Shown here one piece after another: positions 3,406-13,013 of a stretch of DNA of 33,229 nucleotides. A model generated the notes under the pieces. It was not told where the DNA came from and did no database searches. It saw only the letters and a program-made list of their open reading frames with translations. Both the position numbers and the translations under genes were made by a program. Source of the stretch: Acidobacteriota bacterium (lineage in GTDB: Bacteria > Acidobacteriota > UBA6911); assembly GCA_031271905.1 (NCBI GenBank), contig JAISUT010000038.1, forward strand, positions 1 to 33,229, written 5' to 3'. Each line of letters opens with the position of its first letter. Within the stretch, counting starts at the first letter, position 1.

Positions 3406-5709
3406 TTACCTGGTAGCGGTCAGCGTCGCGCGGATGTCACGGGACGAGGACGCCAGGTGGAATTTGTATCCCCCCGCGTCCACCACCCACTTGCCCGCGT
3501 CGGCGTCGAACGACGCCAAGTCGCCTGCGGCCACCTTGATCGTCACCCGCTCGCCCTCGCCCGGCTGGAGCAGGCGGGTCTTGGCGAAGCCCTTCAGCTC
3601 CTTCGCGGGCTTGGGGCGGGCGGGGTTCGGCGGCGCGCCCACATACAGTTGCACCACCTCCTTGCCGGCGGCGGCGCCGCTGTTTTTCACCGTCACGCCG
3701 ACCGCGTACCCGTCGCCGTCCCGCGACAGCGACGGCTCGGAATAGTCGAATTTCGCGTAGGAGAGGCCGTAGCCGAACGGATACGAGACCTCCTTGCCGT
3801 GCGTGTCGTAATGGCGGTAGCCGACGAAGACGTCCTCCGCGTAGTCGGTGAAGTCGATGTTGGGGCGGTTCTGCGACGGCTGCGGCGACAGGTCGGGCGC
3901 GCCCGGCGCGTAGTCGAGCGGGAAGTTCTTGTGCGAAGGGACGTCCTCCAGCCTCACCGGGAAGGTCATCGGCAGCTTGCCCGAGGGCGACACGGCGCCG
4001 CCGAGCACGTCCGCCACGGAGTTGCCCCCTTCCTGCCCCGCCTGCCATGCCAGCAAAATCGCGTCGGGATGCCGCTTCCACGAAGCGGTTTCGACGACGC
4101 CGCCGATGTTGAGGATCACCACCGTCTTCTTCCCCGCCCGGCGGAACGCCTCGCTCACGTCCTTCACCAGCGCCGCCTCCTCGACCGCGAGGTCGAAGTC
4201 GCCCGCGACGAGGCGGTCCTGGAACTCGCCGGAGTTGCGGCCGATGGTGACCAGCGCCACATCCGCCCGCTTCGCCAAGGCGTCGAGGAACGCCCTGTCG
4301 GGGACGAACTCCGCGGCGCGCGCCTTGGGCATGAATGCCGCCATCGGGCCCGCCTCCGGCTTGTTCTTCTCGTTTTCGGCGCGCAGGTGCTCCTCGTAGC
4401 GCGCCTTGAGCGCCGCGTCCAGGGTGTATCCGGCATTCTCCAGCCCATCGACCAGCGAAACGGTGTAGGCTTCGTTGACATCGCCGCTGCCCGTGCCGCC
4501 GGAGATGAAGTCGTAGGAGGTCGTCCCGAAGGCGGCGACGGATTTGACGCCCGCCGCCAGCGGGAGCGCGCCGCCGTCGTTTTTAAGGAGCACCATCCCC
4601 TCGGCGGCCGACTCGCGCGTCACCTTGGCGTGCGCGGCGAGGTCCGGCCGGTTGGAGTATTTGTAGCCCTTGAAGCGCGGCGAGCGCACGACCAGCTCCA
4701 GCACGCGCCTGACGCTGGCGTCCACGTCCTTGACGTCGAGCGCGCCGCTTTTCACGGCGTCGATGATGGCCTTCTCCTGGTCGGGACGCCCCGGCATCAT
4801 CAGGTCGTTGCCGGCATGGACCTGCTTCGCGACGTCCGCGCCGCCGAACCAGTCGGTCATCACCGCCCCGTCGAAGCCCCAGTCGGAACGGAGGATGTCG
4901 GTCAGAAGCTCGCGGCTCTCGCTGGCGTACACGCCGTTGACGCGGTTGTAGGAGGACATCACCGTCCACGGCTCGCCCTCTTTCACCGCGATCTCGAACC
5001 CCTTGAGGTAGATTTCGCGCAGGGCGCGCGGGGAGACGCGCGCGTCGTTGCCCATGCGGTTCGTCTCCTGGTTGTTGGCGGCGAAGTGCTTGACGGAGGT
5101 CCCCACGCCGTTGCCCTGCACGCCCCGGACGACGGCGGCGGCGGTCTTGCCGGAAAGCAGCGGGTCTTCGGAGTAGTATTCGAAGTTGCGGCCGCAGAGC
5201 GGGTGTCGGTGGATGTTCAGCGCCGGGGCGAGCAGCACGTCCACGCCGTATTCCAAGACCTCGTTGCCGATGGCCTTGCCCACCTCCTCGTCCAGCGCGC
5301 AGTTCCAGGTCGAGGCCAGCAGCGTCGCCACCGGGAACGCCGTGCCGAAATAGGTGGCGCCATCCCCCTCGCGGCGCGGCGCGATGCGCAACCCCGCCGG
5401 GCCGTCGGCCAGCACGATGGCGGGGATGCCGAGGCGCGGTATGGGCGCGGTCGTCCCCGCCGCCCCCGGCACCAGCGACAGCGTCTCGCCCACCGCCGGC
5501 GCCTTGCCGTCGGAGGCGTCCCCGCCCGCGCCCGCCATCCCCGCGCCGACCAGGAGGCGCGCCTTCTCCTCCAGCGTCATCGCGGCGACGACCTCGTCGA
5601 TGGACGACTCGCCCAGCTTCACCGCCTTGTTCGCGCCTCCCGCGCAAGCCTGCGCAAGCACCGCGCAAAACACCGCCACGCACGCCGTCAAAAGCAATTT
5701 CGTATTCAT
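3406..5709 (-). CDS. Lipoprotein GH3 beta-glucosidase
   Basis: A 767-residue glycoside hydrolase family 3 enzyme, expected to cleave beta-glucosides (or related beta-glycosides) at the outer face of a membrane. The start at 5709 is preceded by GAGGGGG. It gives a lipoprotein signal peptide with lipobox LAQAC (Cys22). The TIM-barrel domain carries ADGPAGLR (about 101-108), KHFAANNQETNR (about 207-218) and the nucleophile motif GAVMTDWFGG (Asp286). The alpha/beta sandwich begins near MVLLKNDGGALPL. The C-terminal fibronectin-III-like domain includes EVVQLYVG. Length and order match full GH3 proteins. The same frame is open for 37 codons upstream, but those residues lack a signal peptide. The gene stands alone upstream of the adhesin. 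The exact sugar specificity cannot be read from sequence. Confidence 0.93.
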   Translation of the reverse strand: MNTKLLLTACVAVFCAVLAQACAGGANKAVKLGESSIDEVVAAMTLEEKARLLVGAGMAGAGGDASDGKAPAVGETLSLVPGAAGTTAPIPRLGIPAIVLADGPAGLRIAPRREGDGATYFGTAFPVATLLASTWNCALDEEVGKAIGNEVLEYGVDVLLAPALNIHRHPLCGRNFEYYSEDPLLSGKTAAAVVRGVQGNGVGTSVKHFAANNQETNRMGNDARVSPRALREIYLKGFEIAVKEGEPWTVMSSYNRVNGVYASESRELLTDILRSDWGFDGAVMTDWFGGADVAKQVHAGNDLMMPGRPDQEKAIIDAVKSGALDVKDVDASVRRVLELVVRSPRFKGYKYSNRPDLAAHAKVTRESAAEGMVLLKNDGGALPLAAGVKSVAAFGTTSYDFISGGTGSGDVNEAYTVSLVDGLENAGYTLDAALKARYEEHLRAENEKNKPEAGPMAAFMPKARAAEFVPDRAFLDALAKRADVALVTIGRNSGEFQDRLVAGDFDLAVEEAALVKDVSEAFRRAGKKTVVILNIGGVVETASWKRHPDAILLAWQAGQEGGNSVADVLGGAVSPSGKLPMTFPVRLEDVPSHKNFPLDYAPGAPDLSPQPSQNRPNIDFTDYAEDVFVGYRHYDTHGKEVSYPFGYGLSYAKFDYSEPSLSRDGDGYAVGVTVKNSGAAAGKEVVQLYVGAPPNPARPKPAKELKGFAKTRLLQPGEGERVTIKVAAGDLASFDADAGKWVVDAGGYKFHLASSSRDIRATLTATR

Positions 5710-5835
5710 AGCCCCCTCTAGCCGCTTTGGAAAGATCGTTTGAAAAACACGGCGCGAACCCCGACCGGCAGGTGCGCCAGCCGCGTCACCGGATTTTTGT
5801 ACAGCAGTTCCGGCTCCCATTACAAGGACAAATGC

Positions 5836-5955: not shown

Positions 5956-6732
5956 CTATTGCAGCAGCGAGAACGCCGCGCCGTGCGCCACCGTGTATTG
6001 CGGCGCGGGCAGCACGCGCACCTCGGCCCCGAGCTCGTCGGCGAGCGCCGCCACCAGGCAGGCGTTCAGCGCCGGACCGCCGTCGAGGTAGACCGCCCCC
6101 GCGTCGCCCGACGCGAACCCCGCCCCCATGAGCCCGGCGGCGCGCCGCGCCACCGAGGCGCACAGGCCGCGGACGATGTCCTCCTTGGCGACCCCCGTCG
6201 CCAGGAGCGACACGATCTCGCTCTCGGCGAAGACCACGCAGGTGCTGTTGATGTCGATCTCCCGGCGCGACGCCGCGCCCAGCCGCGCGAAATCCTCCAG
6301 GGGGGTGTCCAGTATCCGCGCAGCCTGCTCGAAGAAGCGCCCCGTCCCCGCCGCGCACTTGTCGTTCATCCGAAAATCCGCCACGCGCCCGTCCGGCGAC
6401 AGGCGGATGGCCTTCGAGTCCTGCCCGCCGATGTTGACGGCGACCCCCGCCCTGCCGCCGCTCAGGCGGAAAAGCCCGAGGGCGTTGGCGGAGATCTCAT
6501 CGACGCTCCGCCGCGCCGAGGCGCAGAGCCTCTTGCCGTATCCGGTGGCCGCCAGCTCGCAGTCCGCGCCCACCGCGCCGACGGCGGCCAGCCCCTCCGC
6601 CACCAGCCGGTTGACGACCTCCTCCTGCCGGGGGACGGTCGGGGCGCACCCGCGCCAAAGCGGGGTCTCGCCGGAATGGATGACGACCTTGATGGCGGTG
6701 CTGCCCAGATCCGCGCCGATTGACAGTTTCAC
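5956..6732 (-). CDS. BadF/BcrA/HgdC-type ATPase, activator of the 2-hydroxyacyl-CoA dehydratase-like protein
   Basis: A 258-residue ASKHA-fold ATPase of the family that couples ATP hydrolysis to one-electron transfer at very low potential. Motifs in order: phosphate-1 GADLGSTAIKVV (6-17), ATGYGK (62-67), phosphate-2 NIGGQDSKAI (100-109), NDKCAAGTGRFFE (123-135), INSTCVVFAESEI (161-173) and the adenosine motif DGGPALN. Cys126 and Cys165 sit where the two cysteines per subunit of HgdC hold the intersubunit [4Fe-4S] cluster. The length is typical of a single-domain homodimeric activator. It follows the dehydratase-like gene by 48 bp and is the last gene of the riboswitch-led operon. Its partner is very probably the neighbouring double-cubane-type protein. 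Confidence 0.93.
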   Translation of the reverse strand: MKLSIGADLGSTAIKVVIHSGETPLWRGCAPTVPRQEEVVNRLVAEGLAAVGAVGADCELAATGYGKRLCASARRSVDEISANALGLFRLSGGRAGVAVNIGGQDSKAIRLSPDGRVADFRMNDKCAAGTGRFFEQAARILDTPLEDFARLGAASRREIDINSTCVVFAESEIVSLLATGVAKEDIVRGLCASVARRAAGLMGAGFASGDAGAVYLDGGPALNACLVAALADELGAEVRVLPAPQYTVAHGAAFSLLQ

Positions 6733-6780
6733 AAAACCCCCTTCGCATATCCGCGGCGCCTCCGCCGCGCCGTCTCCACA

Positions 6781-8112
6781 TCACCCCAGCGTCTGCCGGA
6801 ACGCCTCCAAGCGCGTCAGCAGGTTGCGCGCGTCCTCGGCGGCGTAGTCGGTCTCGACGCGCAGGAACTTCAACCCCTTCGCCTTGACCGGCGCCTCCAA
6901 GGCGCAACTCTCCAGATCGTAAGGGTGGCACCCCTTCAGGACGTGGAAGACCACGCCGTCGAACCGCCTGCCGCCGCCCCCGTCCAGCGCGCCGAAAATG
7001 CCGTGGACGCGGCGGTCGTTGTCGGCGAAGGTCGGGCAGAGGCAGCCCTGGTGATAGCGTTCCGCCAACGCCGCGACCAGCTCGTATTCGGAAGTCCCCG
7101 CGCCCACGCCGTCGGGGCCGTGGGGCGGGATGACGCGCCCCGAGGAGCAGAGGTCGTCGCCGACGACCGCCAGCCCCGCCTCCTCCAGCAGTCCGGGGAG
7201 CTTGAAGTTGGGGAAGAACACCGGCGACCCGGCGAAAAACACCCTGCCGGCCCGCCGGCCCGCCGCCGCATCCGCCCCACGCGCCCGCGGCAACACGTCA
7301 AGGAGCGCGCCCACCGCCTCCGTCCAGCGCTCTGGCGCATCCAGGAAAAAGGAGTTGGCCACGGCCAGGAACCACGCGAACGGCACATCGCCTGCGCGGC
7401 GCCGCTCCCCGAGGCGCGCAAACGCCGCCCACGCCCGCCCGTAGACCGCCATCGACGCGGCAAGGCGCTTGCGGTCGATCTTCACGCCCGCAGCATCCTC
7501 CAGGAACGCCTTGAAGCCGAAGACCTCCTCCAGCCACCGCCGCCGCCCCGGTTCCGCGTCCTTCAGATGGGGCAGCTCCAGCCAGTGCAGGCCAGGGGCG
7601 AGGTCGGGCGAGCCCAGGCGCAACATCTCCGGCAGCTTCACGATCCAGTCGCAGGTGGTCGGCAAGACCCACGGCCGTCGCAGGAAGGGGTTGCCGCCGT
7701 CCCCGGCGCGTCCCTCGCCCCCGCCCAGGCGCACGACGCCCTGCACCGCCCGCAACATCGGGCAGACCAGCGCCGGCAGCCGCCCCGAGGCGCCCACGGC
7801 GTCGGCGGCATACGATCCGGAGAATATCTTGAACGGCAGGAAGCCCGCCGCATGCGCCAGCTCCAGCGGCGCCTGGATGCAGAGCAGGTTCAGCGCGGGC
7901 TTGCCCGTGCGCCGCTCCAGCGCGTCGGGGCGGACGCCCCCCGCGAGCAGGTCGAGGAAGTAGTCGTAGGCGGGCAGCCGGTCGGGGCGGGCGCGCAACG
8001 CTTGCAGTTCGCGTCCCGCCTCGTCCCGGACGCGCCCGAGGGCCTTGCCCAGCCTATCCGCCGCAGGCGACGCCATCTGCGGCGCGCCCGCCGTGTTTCC
8101 CCCATCCCCCAT
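6781..8112 (-). CDS. 2-hydroxyacyl-CoA dehydratase / double-cubane cluster family protein
   Basis: A 443-residue protein of the HgdB/BcrBC/double-cubane superfamily. Candidate cluster cysteines are in LNLLCIQAP, ALVCPM, TTCDW, DDLCSSGR, GCLCPTF and LKGCHPYDLESC. The ending LKFLRVETDY matches the family's 'ipxlxleTDY' element. There is one gene rather than an alpha/beta pair, so a homodimeric double-cubane reductase is more likely than a classical two-subunit dehydratase. The ATG at 8112 lies 2 nt past the upstream stop, suggesting translational coupling. The same frame is open upstream inside the polyferredoxin gene but encodes only shadow sequence there. The partner activator is next in the operon. 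The substrate is unknown; reduction of a small molecule or of a corrinoid are both possible. Confidence 0.85.
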   Translation of the reverse strand: MGDGGNTAGAPQMASPAADRLGKALGRVRDEAGRELQALRARPDRLPAYDYFLDLLAGGVRPDALERRTGKPALNLLCIQAPLELAHAAGFLPFKIFSGSYAADAVGASGRLPALVCPMLRAVQGVVRLGGGEGRAGDGGNPFLRRPWVLPTTCDWIVKLPEMLRLGSPDLAPGLHWLELPHLKDAEPGRRRWLEEVFGFKAFLEDAAGVKIDRKRLAASMAVYGRAWAAFARLGERRRAGDVPFAWFLAVANSFFLDAPERWTEAVGALLDVLPRARGADAAAGRRAGRVFFAGSPVFFPNFKLPGLLEEAGLAVVGDDLCSSGRVIPPHGPDGVGAGTSEYELVAALAERYHQGCLCPTFADNDRRVHGIFGALDGGGGRRFDGVVFHVLKGCHPYDLESCALEAPVKAKGLKFLRVETDYAAEDARNLLTRLEAFRQTLG

Positions 8113-8114
8113 GG

Positions 8115-9068
8115 TCACAGCCTGATCCTCCGCGCGGCATGGCGGCGCGACGATGAAAACAAGTTGAAGCGGAGCCATCGCAGGCGCAAGGCGCCGTCGG
8201 AGGCGCACGCCTCCGCGCACCGGCCGCAGTCGAGGCATTCGCCGGTCTGCACGTCGGCTTTCGCGCGCTCCCGCTGCACCTCGGCGACGTCCATCGGGCA
8301 GGCGCGGCGGCAGGCGCCGCAACCGACGCACGCCTCCACCCCCTTGGACAGCCGCAGGGCGGTGACGGGCTTCAGCAGGTGGATGAGCGCCAACAGCGGG
8401 CAGAATATGCAGAAGAAGCGCTCCTTGAAAAAAGCCCCTGCCAAGGTGACGCCGGTGACGGTCAAAAGCAGCGTCGAGAACGCCAGCGTGACGACGTTGC
8501 TCATGTTGAGCGCCAAGTATTGCGGGTCGCCCGCCAGCAGCGGCAACAGCGCCTTGCCGGGGCAGATGTTGCAAAACGGGAGGTAGAAGTCCTGGTGCAA
8601 GAGCTTCGCCGTCACCAGGGGCGGCACCGCGACCAGGTACCCCAGCAGGACGTACTTGACCGGCGCGAGGCGGCGCTTGGCGCGCCCGCCCAAGATGCGC
8701 TCGCGCACCCCCAGCCTCCGGCGCAGGCTCGCGAACCAGTCCTGGACGAGGCCGAAGGGGCATATCCAGCCGCACCACGCCTTGCCCAGCAACGCCGTCG
8801 AGACGGCGAAGACCGCCAGCCAGCCGAGGGCGGTCAGCATCGGCGCCCCCCCGAGCGCCGCCAGCCCCATCCCGAAGCCGTAGACCCCTTGCAAGCCCAT
8901 CAGGTAGCACTGCCCGCCGCAACCACGCACGTAGGGGCAGGCGAAGCAGGGGACGGCGGCGCCGAGGTTGACGCCGAAGCGTCCGCCGTAGACGAGGAGG
9001 ACGAAGCTCGCGTACTGCACCGCCGTGCGCACGCGCCCGAGCGTCAGGGGCGTCGCCGTCAGCGCCAT
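8115..9068 (-). CDS. Membrane polyferredoxin, NapH/NosR-like 4Fe-4S protein
   Basis: A 317-residue integral membrane iron-sulfur protein with about five hydrophobic segments. The N-terminus has an unusual Cys41, 44, 50, 54 cluster (CFACPYVRGCGGQC). The NapH/NosR hallmarks are WCGWICPFGLVQDW (Cys99, 103) and FCNICPGK (Cys166, 169), followed by FFCIFCP (Cys220, 223). The cytoplasmic tail has two ferredoxin motifs, CVGCGACRRACP (247-258) and CLDCGRCAEAC (278-288); the second lacks the usual final Pro. The ATG at 9068 overlaps the stop of the preceding gene by 10 nt, so the two are probably coupled. It likely carries electrons across or along the membrane, plausibly to the ATPase/double-cubane pair encoded downstream. 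That link is inferred from operon structure. Confidence 0.88.
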   Translation of the reverse strand: MALTATPLTLGRVRTAVQYASFVLLVYGGRFGVNLGAAVPCFACPYVRGCGGQCYLMGLQGVYGFGMGLAALGGAPMLTALGWLAVFAVSTALLGKAWCGWICPFGLVQDWFASLRRRLGVRERILGGRAKRRLAPVKYVLLGYLVAVPPLVTAKLLHQDFYLPFCNICPGKALLPLLAGDPQYLALNMSNVVTLAFSTLLLTVTGVTLAGAFFKERFFCIFCPLLALIHLLKPVTALRLSKGVEACVGCGACRRACPMDVAEVQRERAKADVQTGECLDCGRCAEACASDGALRLRWLRFNLFSSSRRHAARRIRL

Positions 9069-10012
9069 GGGAAACGCCTCCCCTTCAGGAGCACCGCGCC
9101 CAGGCCGAGGGCGAAGGCGGCGCCGAGCACGCCCAGCCCCAGCGGGAAATGGAGGTTGTCGCGCATGGAGCGGTACAGCGGCAGGCAGCAGGTGAAGCGC
9201 ACGCCGTCCGCCCCGTCCGCCCAGGCGGGGACCAGGAGAAGGTCGCGGTGGTCGAGCAGCGCCCGGCCGCCCAGGCGGCGGTCGCGGGGGAGCACGTAGT
9301 CGTACACGCCCGCCCGCGGCAGCAGCTCCGCGACCTGGGCGCCGTCCAGGAGCACCCGCACCGGCGGCGCGGACGGCGGCGCGGCGCCGCCCCTCATGCT
9401 GAAACTGATCGGCTCCCCGGTCTGGGCGGCGTAAAACCCCCGCCTGCGGTTCAGGTCGAAACCGGGCAGCGCCGGGGGCGCGGACAGCTCCTCGACGCCG
9501 GCCGCCTCGCGCCCCGACTCGCCGTAGAGGTTGAGCGCGGTCTGGGTCACAAAGCGCCTGCATCCACCCCCCGCCCCGTCCCCGCGCACCCGCGCCACCG
9601 CCCAAAGCTCGAGTTGCACGTAACTCCCGCTGTAGACGGTGAGGCGGCGCGTGCCGGGCCCGACCGCCATGCGGTACGCCTTGCGCCGATCCTCCGGCTG
9701 GACGGCGTGATCCGCCGCCGGACCGTAGCGGATGGGGTCGGCCGTGTAGTAGGCCTCCAGATCCTCGACGTCCAGCCCGTCCGCGCCGCGCAAGGCGAAC
9801 GTCGCCTCGACTCCGCCGTCCCGCGTCCTGCGCTGCCCCTCGAAATGCCACCAGATCCCCTCGACGCCGGCGCAGGCATCGCCTGCGGGCAGCCCGGAGG
9901 AAATGCCTGCGGGAACCGCCGTCACCGCGAGCAGGGACGCGACGCAAAGGGGCAGGAGCAGCCGGAGCGGCGTGCGGGGGGATGGAGACGGGTGTTTTTC
10001 CAAGCCGGGCAT
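9059..10012 (-). CDS. Exported, C-terminally anchored protein behind the B12 riboswitch (DUF4198-like?)
   Basis: 317 residues: an N-terminal signal sequence (Arg, then LLLPLCVASLLAVTAVPAG), an extracytoplasmic region of about 230 residues, and a C-terminal membrane segment (about 288-310) ending in Lys/Arg. The middle contains GVYDYVLPRDRRLGG and nearby beta-rich sequence that loosely recalls DUF4198 proteins found beside metal or corrinoid uptake systems; I am not certain of this. Cys47 and a few other Cys are present. It is the first gene after the cobalamin riboswitch and overlaps the polyferredoxin start by 10 nt. A cofactor- or metal-binding receptor, or a periplasmic partner of the polyferredoxin, are possible roles. 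No enzyme motif was recognised. Confidence 0.75.
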   Translation of the reverse strand: MPGLEKHPSPSPRTPLRLLLPLCVASLLAVTAVPAGISSGLPAGDACAGVEGIWWHFEGQRRTRDGGVEATFALRGADGLDVEDLEAYYTADPIRYGPAADHAVQPEDRRKAYRMAVGPGTRRLTVYSGSYVQLELWAVARVRGDGAGGGCRRFVTQTALNLYGESGREAAGVEELSAPPALPGFDLNRRRGFYAAQTGEPISFSMRGGAAPPSAPPVRVLLDGAQVAELLPRAGVYDYVLPRDRRLGGRALLDHRDLLLVPAWADGADGVRFTCCLPLYRSMRDNLHFPLGLGVLGAAFALGLGAVLLKGRRFPWR

Positions 10013-10054
10013 TCCAGGTCTCTTTCTCTCGAAGAGCGTGCTGAAACAGGCGAA

Positions 10055-10252
10055 GGCAGGTTTCCTGGCTTACGGCAAGGGCGGCGGCTTGCGCCGCGAC
10101 GCCCGCCGTCCCACAGGCCTTCCCCGCCCGGGTGGGGCGAGTGACCGGCGTTTGCGACCGGGTTGGCGCAGACGCCCGAGGACGGCTTTCCGATTACAGT
10201 GGCGGGACCGTGCGGGATTCGCACCCGCTTCCCTTCCCTTCGCCGACATCTC
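10055..10252 (-). ncRNA. Cobalamin (AdoCbl-type) riboswitch
   Basis: Read on the minus strand, the segment opens with GGGAAGCGGGTGCGAATCCC and continues with a GCACGGTCCCGCCACTGTAA block containing the GCCACTG B12 box (10197-10203). It contains a GGGGAAGGC element and ends with AAGCCAGGAAACCTGCC, all in consensus order. The aptamer ends about 43 nt before the start codon at 10012 of the exported anchored protein. Known cobalamin riboswitches usually switch expression off when B12 is abundant, so the four-gene operon is expected to be induced on B12 shortage. Whether control is by attenuation or by hiding the ribosome site cannot be decided here. Confidence 0.95.
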
Positions 10253-10442: not shown

Positions 10443-10634
10443 ATGCCGATGCAGTGTTATGTTTGTGAAAAGAAGCCCATCTTCGGGCACACGGTTTCCC
10501 ACGCGCACAACGTCCGCTCGCGCAAGTTCTATCCGAACCTGCAGAGCATCAAGATCGTCGAGAACGGCAATGTGAAGCGCGTCCGCATCTGCACGCGCTG
10601 CCTGCGCTCCGGCAAGGTGCAGAAGGCCGTATAG
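10443..10634 (+). CDS. rpmB: 50S ribosomal protein L28
   Basis: A 63-residue protein beginning MPMQCYVCEKKPIFGHTVSH, with ARG-type L28 features (SRKFYPNLQSIK, RICTRCLRSGKVQK). Two CxxC pairs (CYVC and CTRC) make it the zinc-ribbon form of L28, a structural component of the large ribosomal subunit. The start is set by GGGAG about 8 nt upstream and by a promoter just before it. The frame is open further upstream across the riboswitch region, but that part has no ribosomal content. The gene stands alone, without rpmG, and converges on the Rel gene. Confidence 0.95.
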   Translation: MPMQCYVCEKKPIFGHTVSHAHNVRSRKFYPNLQSIKIVENGNVKRVRICTRCLRSGKVQKAV

Positions 10635-10787: not shown

Positions 10788-13013
10788 TCACGACAGTTGC
10801 CGCTCACGCTCCACGTCCTCTATCCCCTCGATCGACTTTATCCCTTGGACGATTTTCTGCAACTGCTTGACGTCGGAGACGTCCAGCATGATGTCGATGA
10901 TGCGCCTCCCCGCGTCGGGCAGGCTGCGGGAGCGGGATTCGCGGATGTTGACCTTCTGCTTGGAGACGGCGGTGATGATCTCGGCGAGCACCTGCTGCTT
11001 GTCCTCGGAGACGATGTTCAGATGCACCTCGAACGTCTCGTGCCCGTCGCCCGCCACCCACTCCACGTCGATGATGCGGTCGGTGCCGAGGAGGTTCTTC
11101 AGGCTGGGGCAGTCCGCCATGTGGACGAAGATGCCCTTCCCGCGTGTGATGTAGCCCAGGATGTCGTCCCCTAGGATGGGGTTGCAACACTTGGCGCGGT
11201 AGATCACCATGTCGTCCGACCCTTTGACGGTGACGGCGGACTGGCCCTTGCCTTTGCCGAAGACGCCGCGCACGACGTTGGATATCATCGCCAGCTTCGA
11301 CGTGGAGTGGGCGGGCGCGGCCGGGACGGCGCCTGCCGACGCATGCTCGACGGACGCCTCCGCCGACGGCGCACGGTCGGGGAACAACGGCCCGAGTATC
11401 TGCCGGGGGGTGAGCATACCGTAGCCCACCGCCGGGTAGATCTCGTCCACCTTGCGCAAACCACACCGCCCCATGACCTGGAACAGCTCCGGCATCTGCA
11501 AGACCTTCTTCCAGGCGACGCCGAAGCGCTGCGACTCCTTCTCCAGCAACGCGCGCCCCACCTCGGCGGCGGCCTCGCGCTCCTTCTGGTTGATGAAGCG
11601 CCTGATCTTGTTGCGCGTCCGCGAGGTCTTGACGAAGGAGAGCCATTCGCGCCGGGGCGAGGCGTCCTCGTCGGTCAGCACCTCCACGATCTCCCCATGC
11701 TTGATCTTGTAGCGCAACGGCACGATGCGCCCGTTCACCTTCGCCGCCACGCACTTGTTCCCGATCTCGGAGTGGATGGCGTAGGCGAAGTCCACCGGCG
11801 TGGCGTCCCGGGGAAGCGTGATGACCTCCCCCTTGGGGGTGAAGCAGTAGACCTCGTCCTGGTAGAGGTCGATCTTCAAGTTGTTCAGGAACTCGCGCGG
11901 GTCGCTGACCTCCTGCTGAGACTCGATCAACTGGCGCAACCAGCGGAACTGCTCCTCGCCCTCGACCACCCCTTGCTTCCCCTCCTTATACTTCCAATGG
12001 GCGGCGAGCCCCTCCTCGGCGACGAAGTGCATCTCCTCGGTGCGTATCTGGATCTCGAACGGCTGCCCGCTGCGCCCGATCACCGAGGTGTGCAGCGACT
12101 GGTAGAGGTTCATGCGGGGGATCGCGATGTAGTCCCGGATGCGGCCCGGAACCGGCTTCCAGAGGTTGTGCAGGAGGCCCAGGATGCTGTAACAGTGCTC
12201 CACGGTGTCGGTGATCACCCGGATGGCGATGAAGTCGAACACCTCGTCGATGGTGATCTTCTGGCGCTTCATCTTGTTGTAGACGCCGTAAATGCGCTTG
12301 ATGCGGCTTTCGAGGCGGGCGGGGATGCCGTGCTCGTCCAGCGCCCTGCGGATGGTGCCCTCGGCCTCGTCGATGAAGTCCTTGCTGACGGCGCGCCGCG
12401 CCTCGATCTGCGCCACCGTGTGCTGGTACGCCGCCGGATCGAGGAAGCTGAAGGAGAGGTCTTCGAGTTCGCCCCTGATCTTGGACATCCCCAGGCGGTG
12501 CGCCAGCGGCGCGTAGATGTTCAACGTCTCCAGCGCGATGCGCTCCCGCTTCTCGGGCGGGAGGTGTTGCAACGTGCGCATGTTGTGCAGGCGGTCGGCG
12601 AGCTTCACGAACAGCACGCGGATGTCGTGGACCATCGCCAGCAACATCTTGCGGAAGGTCTCCGCCTGCTTCGCCTGACGGGTCGCGCCCAGCCTCATCT
12701 GGGCGATCTTGGTGACGCCGTCCACCAATTGGAAGATGTCCTCGCCGAACTGCCTGCGCAACTCGTCGGCGCCGATCAGCGTGTCCTCCAACACGTCGTG
12801 CAGCAGTCCGGCGGTGACCGTCTCCGCGTCCAGCTTGAGTCCCGCGAGGATGTTGGCGACTTCCAGGGGGTGGGTCAGGTAAGGCTCGCCGCTCTGGCGC
12901 ACCTGCCCCTTGTGGTATTTGGCGGAGACGACATACCCCCGCTGGATGACCTCCACCGACGCGCCGGGATGGTAGCGCGTCACCTGCTCCGCCAAATCTT
13001 GATACCGTATCAT
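10788..13013 (-). CDS. rel: Bifunctional (p)ppGpp synthetase/hydrolase, RelA/SpoT family
   Basis: A 741-residue long RSH protein that makes and degrades (p)ppGpp, the stringent-response signal. The hydrolase domain keeps the HD pair (LLHDVLEDT, His72-Asp73) and KLADRLHNMRTL (137-148). The synthetase domain has RIKRIYGVYNKMKRQK (237-252), YQSLHTSVIG (304-313) and EIQIRTEEMHFVAEEG (320-335). The RQK at the specificity loop is the basic type seen in bifunctional Rel enzymes rather than the acidic RelA type. The TGS domain spans about 387-448. A CCNP..GDDI zinc-finger/RIS region and a C-terminal ACT domain follow. Both active sites look intact. It sits alone between two copies of the repeat element and converges on rpmB. 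Confidence 0.96.
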   Translation of the reverse strand: MIRYQDLAEQVTRYHPGASVEVIQRGYVVSAKYHKGQVRQSGEPYLTHPLEVANILAGLKLDAETVTAGLLHDVLEDTLIGADELRRQFGEDIFQLVDGVTKIAQMRLGATRQAKQAETFRKMLLAMVHDIRVLFVKLADRLHNMRTLQHLPPEKRERIALETLNIYAPLAHRLGMSKIRGELEDLSFSFLDPAAYQHTVAQIEARRAVSKDFIDEAEGTIRRALDEHGIPARLESRIKRIYGVYNKMKRQKITIDEVFDFIAIRVITDTVEHCYSILGLLHNLWKPVPGRIRDYIAIPRMNLYQSLHTSVIGRSGQPFEIQIRTEEMHFVAEEGLAAHWKYKEGKQGVVEGEEQFRWLRQLIESQQEVSDPREFLNNLKIDLYQDEVYCFTPKGEVITLPRDATPVDFAYAIHSEIGNKCVAAKVNGRIVPLRYKIKHGEIVEVLTDEDASPRREWLSFVKTSRTRNKIRRFINQKEREAAAEVGRALLEKESQRFGVAWKKVLQMPELFQVMGRCGLRKVDEIYPAVGYGMLTPRQILGPLFPDRAPSAEASVEHASAGAVPAAPAHSTSKLAMISNVVRGVFGKGKGQSAVTVKGSDDMVIYRAKCCNPILGDDILGYITRGKGIFVHMADCPSLKNLLGTDRIIDVEWVAGDGHETFEVHLNIVSEDKQQVLAEIITAVSKQKVNIRESRSRSLPDAGRRIIDIMLDVSDVKQLQKIVQGIKSIEGIEDVERERQLS

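Follow-up and report, generated by a model that had tools for sequence, protein, structure and literature searches.

ATPases of the HgdC type push electrons into proteins of the HGD-D family. The double-cubane [8Fe-9S] cluster of BzdN, from benzoyl-CoA reductase, is held by C36, C73, C100, C263, C293 and C327, the clusters of BzdNO accept electrons below -600 mV, and the physiological role of the stand-alone relative DCCP is unclear (PMC11971306). In another described system, HmuS, a reductive dechelatase predicted to be membrane-anchored, strips iron from heme with NADH as reductant (PMC12583661). Here we analyzed a four-gene operon, A-B-C-D, headed by a cobalamin riboswitch on a contig of 33,229 nucleotides from an Acidobacteriota bacterium (JAISUT010000038.1; this whole stretch is called the window) with a genome of 3.4 Mb that is 99.8% complete. 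The set, termed the cassette, is a new variant of the ATP-driven double-cubane systems; its parts belong to or border known families, although by model scores C is no DCCP ortholog and B no NapH. We give about even chances to the reading that the cassette is an ATP-driven transmembrane low-potential reductase that assists TonB-dependent uptake and, in the clade carrying the riboswitch, acts on a corrinoid. The author of an initial annotation of the window knew of no described system with this exact set, and the full-text literature searched, most subscription papers being outside its scope, gave no description of it either.

The operon consists of the following elements.
10262-10038, minus strand: cobalamin riboswitch RF00174 (cmscan 64.4 bits for a cut-off of 31.5, E 6e-14, full-length match to model positions 1-189).
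10012-9059, minus strand: gene A, open reading frame (ORF) of 317 amino acids, exported and anchored protein, no Pfam or NCBIfam match.
9068-8115, minus strand: gene B, ORF of 317 amino acids, NapH-like membrane polyferredoxin (Pfam/NCBIfam).
8112-6781, minus strand: gene C, ORF of 443 amino acids, single-subunit protein of the HGD-D/double-cubane type (Pfam PF06050).
6732-5956, minus strand: gene D, ORF of 258 amino acids, HgdC/BadF-type ATPase activase (PF01869, TIGR00241).

This layout agrees with the initial annotation. The 10-nt overlap of A and B and the gaps of 2 nt (B-C) and 48 nt (C-D) were reproduced exactly, and the riboswitch, placed at 10055-10252 in that annotation, was nearly right. 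It is the sole Rfam match in the window and its 3' end lies 25 nt upstream of the start codon of A. The covariance-model score rules out a chance match or a misreading; upon minimum-energy folding, the stability of the leader was not above that of shuffles (z -0.98), a result with no bearing on the covariance-model match. The assignments proposed for the four proteins also held: an exported anchored protein for A (terminal helices in the AlphaFold2 (AF2) model), a NapH/NosR-like polyferredoxin for B (Pfam matches to Fer4_5/Fer4_10, NapH Cys kept), a single-subunit 2-hydroxyacyl-CoA dehydratase-like protein for C (HGD-D, PF06050, 2e-56; one HGD-D gene per cassette) and an HgdC-type activator with Cys126 and Cys165 for D (BcrAD_BadFG, PF01869, 2e-41; TIGR00241, 186.8 bits for a cut-off of 125.4; neither Cys varies among 15 sequences).

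The cassette recurs in other genomes. A scan of 84,980 species genomes using an alignment of three C proteins, which depends on two peptide patterns, gave 16 loci with at least 50% identity, every other match being at 35% or below; these loci come from Acidobacteriota, Candidatus Adiutrix, Synergistaceae, Spirochaetaceae, 'Accumulibacter' and a betaproteobacterium. A profile of B added four cassettes in Synergistota, where B is present in 7 of 188 genomes; its single occurrence among 297 sampled Acidobacteriota genomes is that of the window. Wider searches provided further members in Thermodesulfobacteriota and Spirochaetota, and the cassette is found in at least five phyla (Acidobacteriota, Synergistota, Thermodesulfobacteriota, Spirochaetota and Pseudomonadota). 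Wherever the contig allows, the genes share one strand and follow the order A-B-C-D. This order recurs in 20 loci outside the window genome and in further members from the wider searches, so the four-gene set is not due to chance. Its rare and patchy distribution suggests horizontal transfer. Close relatives from the C scan look mostly termite-gut, and the sample codes of three of them (Kf353, Gx485 and Pcl387) are those of termite samples (PMC11707648, PMC12887300). A purely termite-gut system was rejected upon finding cassettes in further Thermodesulfobacteriota and Spirochaetota, and cousin operons in the order of genome G157; because the scan is pattern-dependent and wider searches found more, we limit the claim on habitat to an enrichment in termite guts. 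Carriers are neither corrinoid makers only nor salvagers only, CbiC being present in 12 of 19 cassette genomes.

The riboswitch is a regular companion of the genes. The main clade comprises 22 loci with upstream sequence (the window, L044-L055, L057, L058, L142-L145 and L209-L211, with L211 assigned by score), and 20 of the 21 that are informative have a cobalamin riboswitch upstream in the same orientation. L047, cut off by the end of its contig, is uninformative, and L053 has no riboswitch even at permissive thresholds. In 14 of the riboswitch loci A is the first recognised gene after the riboswitch; elsewhere the interval holds a TonB receptor (L048, L049), nrdD-nrdG (L055), a long uptake operon (L046, L050) or a 2.4-kb unannotated stretch (L211). 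Such linkage is beyond chance because the window genome contains only four cobalamin riboswitches in its 3.4 Mb. By gene names given from sequence inspection alone, the other three head a long reading frame (L039), BtuF/BtuC/BtuD-type genes (L040) and a BtuB/CobU/CobT/CobS-type set (L041). No cobalamin riboswitch was found around eight distant C-homologue loci (147 kb). The relatives thus carry the genes together with riboswitches, and not apart and riboswitch-free, the outcome that the initial annotation had named as contrary to its proposal. In a separate observation, contig C22 of genome G985 carries about a dozen cobalamin riboswitches within some 60 kb.

C has the DCCP structures 7YYL/6ENO as its best relatives in the PDB. 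Residues C78, C117, C154, C322, C359 and C395 align with the ligands of DCCP and BzdN and are invariant in the cassette, two of these six positions being without Cys in HadC; on this alignment an [8Fe-9S] double-cubane cluster is predicted in C. A seventh Cys, C357, is invariant in the cassette proteins and in 16 further B-linked C proteins, and is present in 0 of the 61 family members examined besides these. H354 and H396, likewise invariant in the cassette, are shared with its nearest cousins, the more distant ones having Leu/Met and Leu/Gln/Ile, respectively. In a maximum-likelihood tree the 22 cassette C proteins form one clade (100/100, stem of 1.68 changes per column) apart from DCCP (6ENO), HadC, BzdN and MbdN, and C scores 174.7 bits with the DCCP equivalog NF040772, for a cut-off of 350. 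The likeness to DCCP/DCCP-R of Carboxydothermus hydrogenoformans (PDB 6ENO/7YYL) therefore comprises the HGD-D fold family, the single subunit, the six double-cubane Cys positions and an ATPase partner gene, whereas the separate clade, the low score, the extra C357, H354, H396 and Trp residues, the membrane conduit, the exported partner and the riboswitch set the cassette apart. With BzdN it shares the six aligned ligands, but BzdNO is a heterodimer acting on benzoyl-CoA, has no membrane partner and lies far from C in the tree. The two-subunit organization of 2-hydroxyacyl-CoA dehydratases is not found, every cassette having a single HGD-D gene whose product does not group with HadC; nor was the clustering with a characterised dehydratase seen that the initial annotation had given as grounds for abandoning its proposal. 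A catabolic acyl-CoA dehydratase or a benzoyl-CoA reductase is ruled out by the single subunit, the tree position and the neighbours. In L211, gene C has an in-frame TGA (7046-7048, minus strand) at the codon of the conserved Trp156. Selenocysteine was rejected; since a Trp (W156) and not a cluster Cys is replaced, the TGA is probably a nonsense mutation or an error.

B scores below the cut-offs of the NapH-type NCBIfam models (75.4 bits for 213 with the NapH model) and no Nap genes are present in the operon. Eighteen Cys are invariant in 17 sequences; all 12 cytoplasmic-side Cys of Escherichia coli NapH are aligned and kept, and the other six (C41, C44, C50, C54, C166 and C169) have no counterpart in that protein. 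These six sit in loops 34-74 and 157-191, which contain 0.14 and 0.55 Lys plus Arg per ten residues, compared to 1.76 and 1.38 in loops 99-131 and 215-317; owing to this low content, loops 34-74 and 157-191 are predicted to be periplasmic by the positive-inside rule. C44, C54, C166 and C169 are invariant in 43 of 43 B homologues, five of which were found without C and D or were not checked for them, and C41 and C50 are restricted to the main clade plus half of the cousins. Cys sets on both faces suggest that B is a transmembrane electron conduit, with likely Fe-S ligands on either side of the membrane. B thus resembles NapH/MauN in its four predicted transmembrane segments and 12 matching Cys, and differs from them by the six extra Cys, predicted to be on the periplasmic side, by the absence of NapA/NapG and by its scores.

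The AF2 model of A, with a predicted local distance difference test (pLDDT) score of 79, consists of two beta domains flanked by a helix at either terminus; from its sequence, A is inferred to be a membrane-anchored periplasmic protein. Four Zcp structures top the list of structural matches (VIA-align Z 9.5-11.9 over ~185 residues), and those that follow have Z of 7.8 or less and cover one domain only. The two-domain beta fold is that of the DUF4198/Zcp periplasmic metal-binding proteins, and counterparts of A in cousin operons match DUF4198 weakly, but this likeness of A is structural only: A has no Pfam match, carries a C-terminal membrane anchor, and shows no conserved His or Cys in a 15-member alignment. 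The fold fits a metal-binding protein and the metal residues are absent, and this candidate role was rejected; the lack of conserved Cys and His makes docking or binding the likelier role.

Several operons place the cassette among uptake genes. In Synergistaceae (L046, L047 and L050), a TonB receptor, DUF2162, a MotA/ExbB-like protein, BtuF-like and CbiZ parts, a CobN-family chelatase, A, B, C, D and ExbB follow one another in this order; in L046 (2175-8081, plus strand) the BtuF-like, CbiZ and CobN/HmuS-like parts are fused in one protein of 1968 amino acids with a signal peptide. A-B-C-D is followed by DUF2162/MotA and then CobN in L057, A-B-C by a TonB receptor and CobN in L144, and D by a protein resembling a BtuF+CbiZ fusion in L209 and L210. 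Such neighbours suggest a role in the envelope and a link to corrinoids. The operon chelatase has a signal peptide or an N-terminal hydrophobic stretch plus a C-terminal transmembrane segment, and the one chelatase compared with the PDB, that of L047, is closer to HmuS (517 bits) than to CobN (463). CobN matches occur in 12 of 17 cassette genomes and are operon-linked in at least five loci. The HmuS operons of Bacteroidota are similar in combining TonB receptor uptake with a reductant-dependent exported protein of the CobN family; the cassette differs from them by its cobalamin riboswitch, CbiZ and BtuF-like parts, by an ATP-driven reductase and membrane conduit in place of NADH, and by the absence of the chelatase from several genomes including that of the window. 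Exported proteins of ~445 amino acids without Pfam match also adjoin TonB receptors (L157 3273-4610, plus strand; L144 6398-7732, minus strand) and may be corrinoid-binding surface proteins.

Cousin operons extend the family. Six loci (L219, L220, L223, L224, L227 and L228) hold B-C-D, preceded by an exported protein where upstream sequence is seen, with no riboswitch near; where scanned, the exported proteins are DUF4198-like by weak Pfam matches. TonB receptors and a DsbD_2-type membrane protein are mostly nearby (Pfam-confirmed in L223, L224 and L225). L225 and L226 contain a TonB receptor, a DUF4198-like protein and B, with no C or D; further sets of this type match in the order of genome G157 and may represent a simpler relative that serves another metal complex. 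On the tree of B, riboswitch carriers group together (6 changes of the label, compared to 11.9 upon shuffling), three of them falling outside the main group. Since the cousins, which the initial annotation had not foreseen, have no riboswitch, one branch of the wider family probably has a corrinoid as its substrate; the system looks like a TonB-linked reductase of general use, one branch of which came under cobalamin control.

In the window, the neighbours of the cassette look ordinary, and the same genome carries a second B-C-D set.
10443-10634, plus strand: ribosomal protein L28-like gene, divergent from the operon, not Pfam-confirmed.
10788-13013, minus strand: RelA/SpoT-like gene, not Pfam-confirmed.
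3406-5820, minus strand: GH3 glycosidase, downstream of the operon, Pfam-confirmed.
G000:C3, L038 7760-10800, minus strand: B-C-D set, 65-72% identical, without gene A or riboswitch, adjoining a GH67 glycoside hydrolase gene.

In cobalamins, the Co(II)/Co(I) couple has a very low potential. With an ATP-driven electron source wired to the envelope beside corrinoid importers, reductive corrinoid processing during uptake is the best explanation of the cassette. We infer a corrinoid substrate, an outward electron flow and the following reaction. The cassette would be made when cobalamin is scarce; D would hydrolyse ATP to load C, whose double-cubane cluster would store very low-potential electrons; B would carry electrons between the cytosolic C/D pair and the periplasm, where A would dock the incoming cargo or its binding protein. 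The corrinoid might then be reduced from Co(III)/Co(II) towards Co(I) and shed its axial ligands before salvage or remodelling; in some operons CbiZ or the exported CobN/HmuS-like chelatase would receive it. Several points weigh against this reading. Firstly, the topology of B is a prediction from charge counts. Secondly, no uptake gene adjoins the cassette in the window, and no CobN match was found in the window genome or in four other cassette genomes. Thirdly, some copies, including the B-C-D paralogue of the same genome, are without A and/or the riboswitch, no D is present near the L144 cassette, and one operon (L055) carries nrdDG.

NapH handles quinol electrons, and activases of the HgdC type take electrons from ferredoxins. 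Both facts, together with the match of the C-terminal ferredoxin domain of B to NapH, are consistent with an inward flow in which B would draw electrons from menaquinol or the periplasm and feed D/C, which would bring cytosolic cob(II)alamin to the Co(I) state needed for its adenosylation or reactivation; the membrane part would then be an electron source only, as in the membrane-fed reductase of the initial annotation. Adenosyltransferases of the BtuR type, which need Co(I), are encoded in 13 of 19 cassette genomes. We consider this version unlikely: it needs neither the exported A nor the invariant outer-face Cys of B, the operons seen hold uptake genes and not cobS, cobT or btuR, and the window genome gave no BtuR-type match (the BtuR type was searched, the PduO type was not). 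Somewhat more doubtful still is the reduction of another metal complex (heme, cobalt or nickel chelates), cobalamin control merely reporting cobalt or corrinoid status. The fold of A, matching Zcp structures solved with Zn, Cu and Co, the cousins without riboswitches, the action of HmuS on heme (PMC12583661) and the nickel binding of DUF4198 proteins, located near Ni/Co uptake genes (PMC12537917), speak for it, but A has no conserved His/Cys and hence no DUF4198-type metal site, and corrinoids are indicated by the CbiZ and BtuF-like proteins encoded in the operons richest in context. A B12-free replacement, performing the reaction of a B12 enzyme when B12 is short, is improbable in spite of the riboswitch control and of the B12-independent ribonucleotide reductase pair nrdD-nrdG between riboswitch and cassette in L055, as uptake genes are linked in many more loci than any replacement enzyme, a cytosolic isozyme needs neither exported A nor membrane-spanning B, and the cassette occurs in corrinoid-making genomes (CbiC, 12 of 19). 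Between the two alternatives of the initial annotation, the low-potential corrinoid reductase is thus favoured by the TonB/BtuF/CbiZ/CobN operons, the exported A and the periplasmic-side Cys of B, and the replacement retains one supporting locus (L055).

There is a real chance that the cassette is a new kind of envelope machine. In a bolder form, which we put forward tentatively and hold to be rather unlikely, it would represent a new class, exporting electrons of double-cubane level across the inner membrane at the expense of ATP and stripping ligands (or, with the HmuS-like chelatase, even cobalt) from incoming corrinoids, as a branch of a wider TonB-receptor/DUF4198/polyferredoxin family reducing imported metal complexes. 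The cassette ties one double-cubane branch to cobalamin control and corrinoid uptake and adds a membrane conduit, and through these links the purpose of stand-alone double-cubane proteins becomes directly testable. If the proposed reading is true, anaerobes would spend ATP on making foreign or inert corrinoids usable, and a reducing step would be added to an uptake route usually described as transport only.

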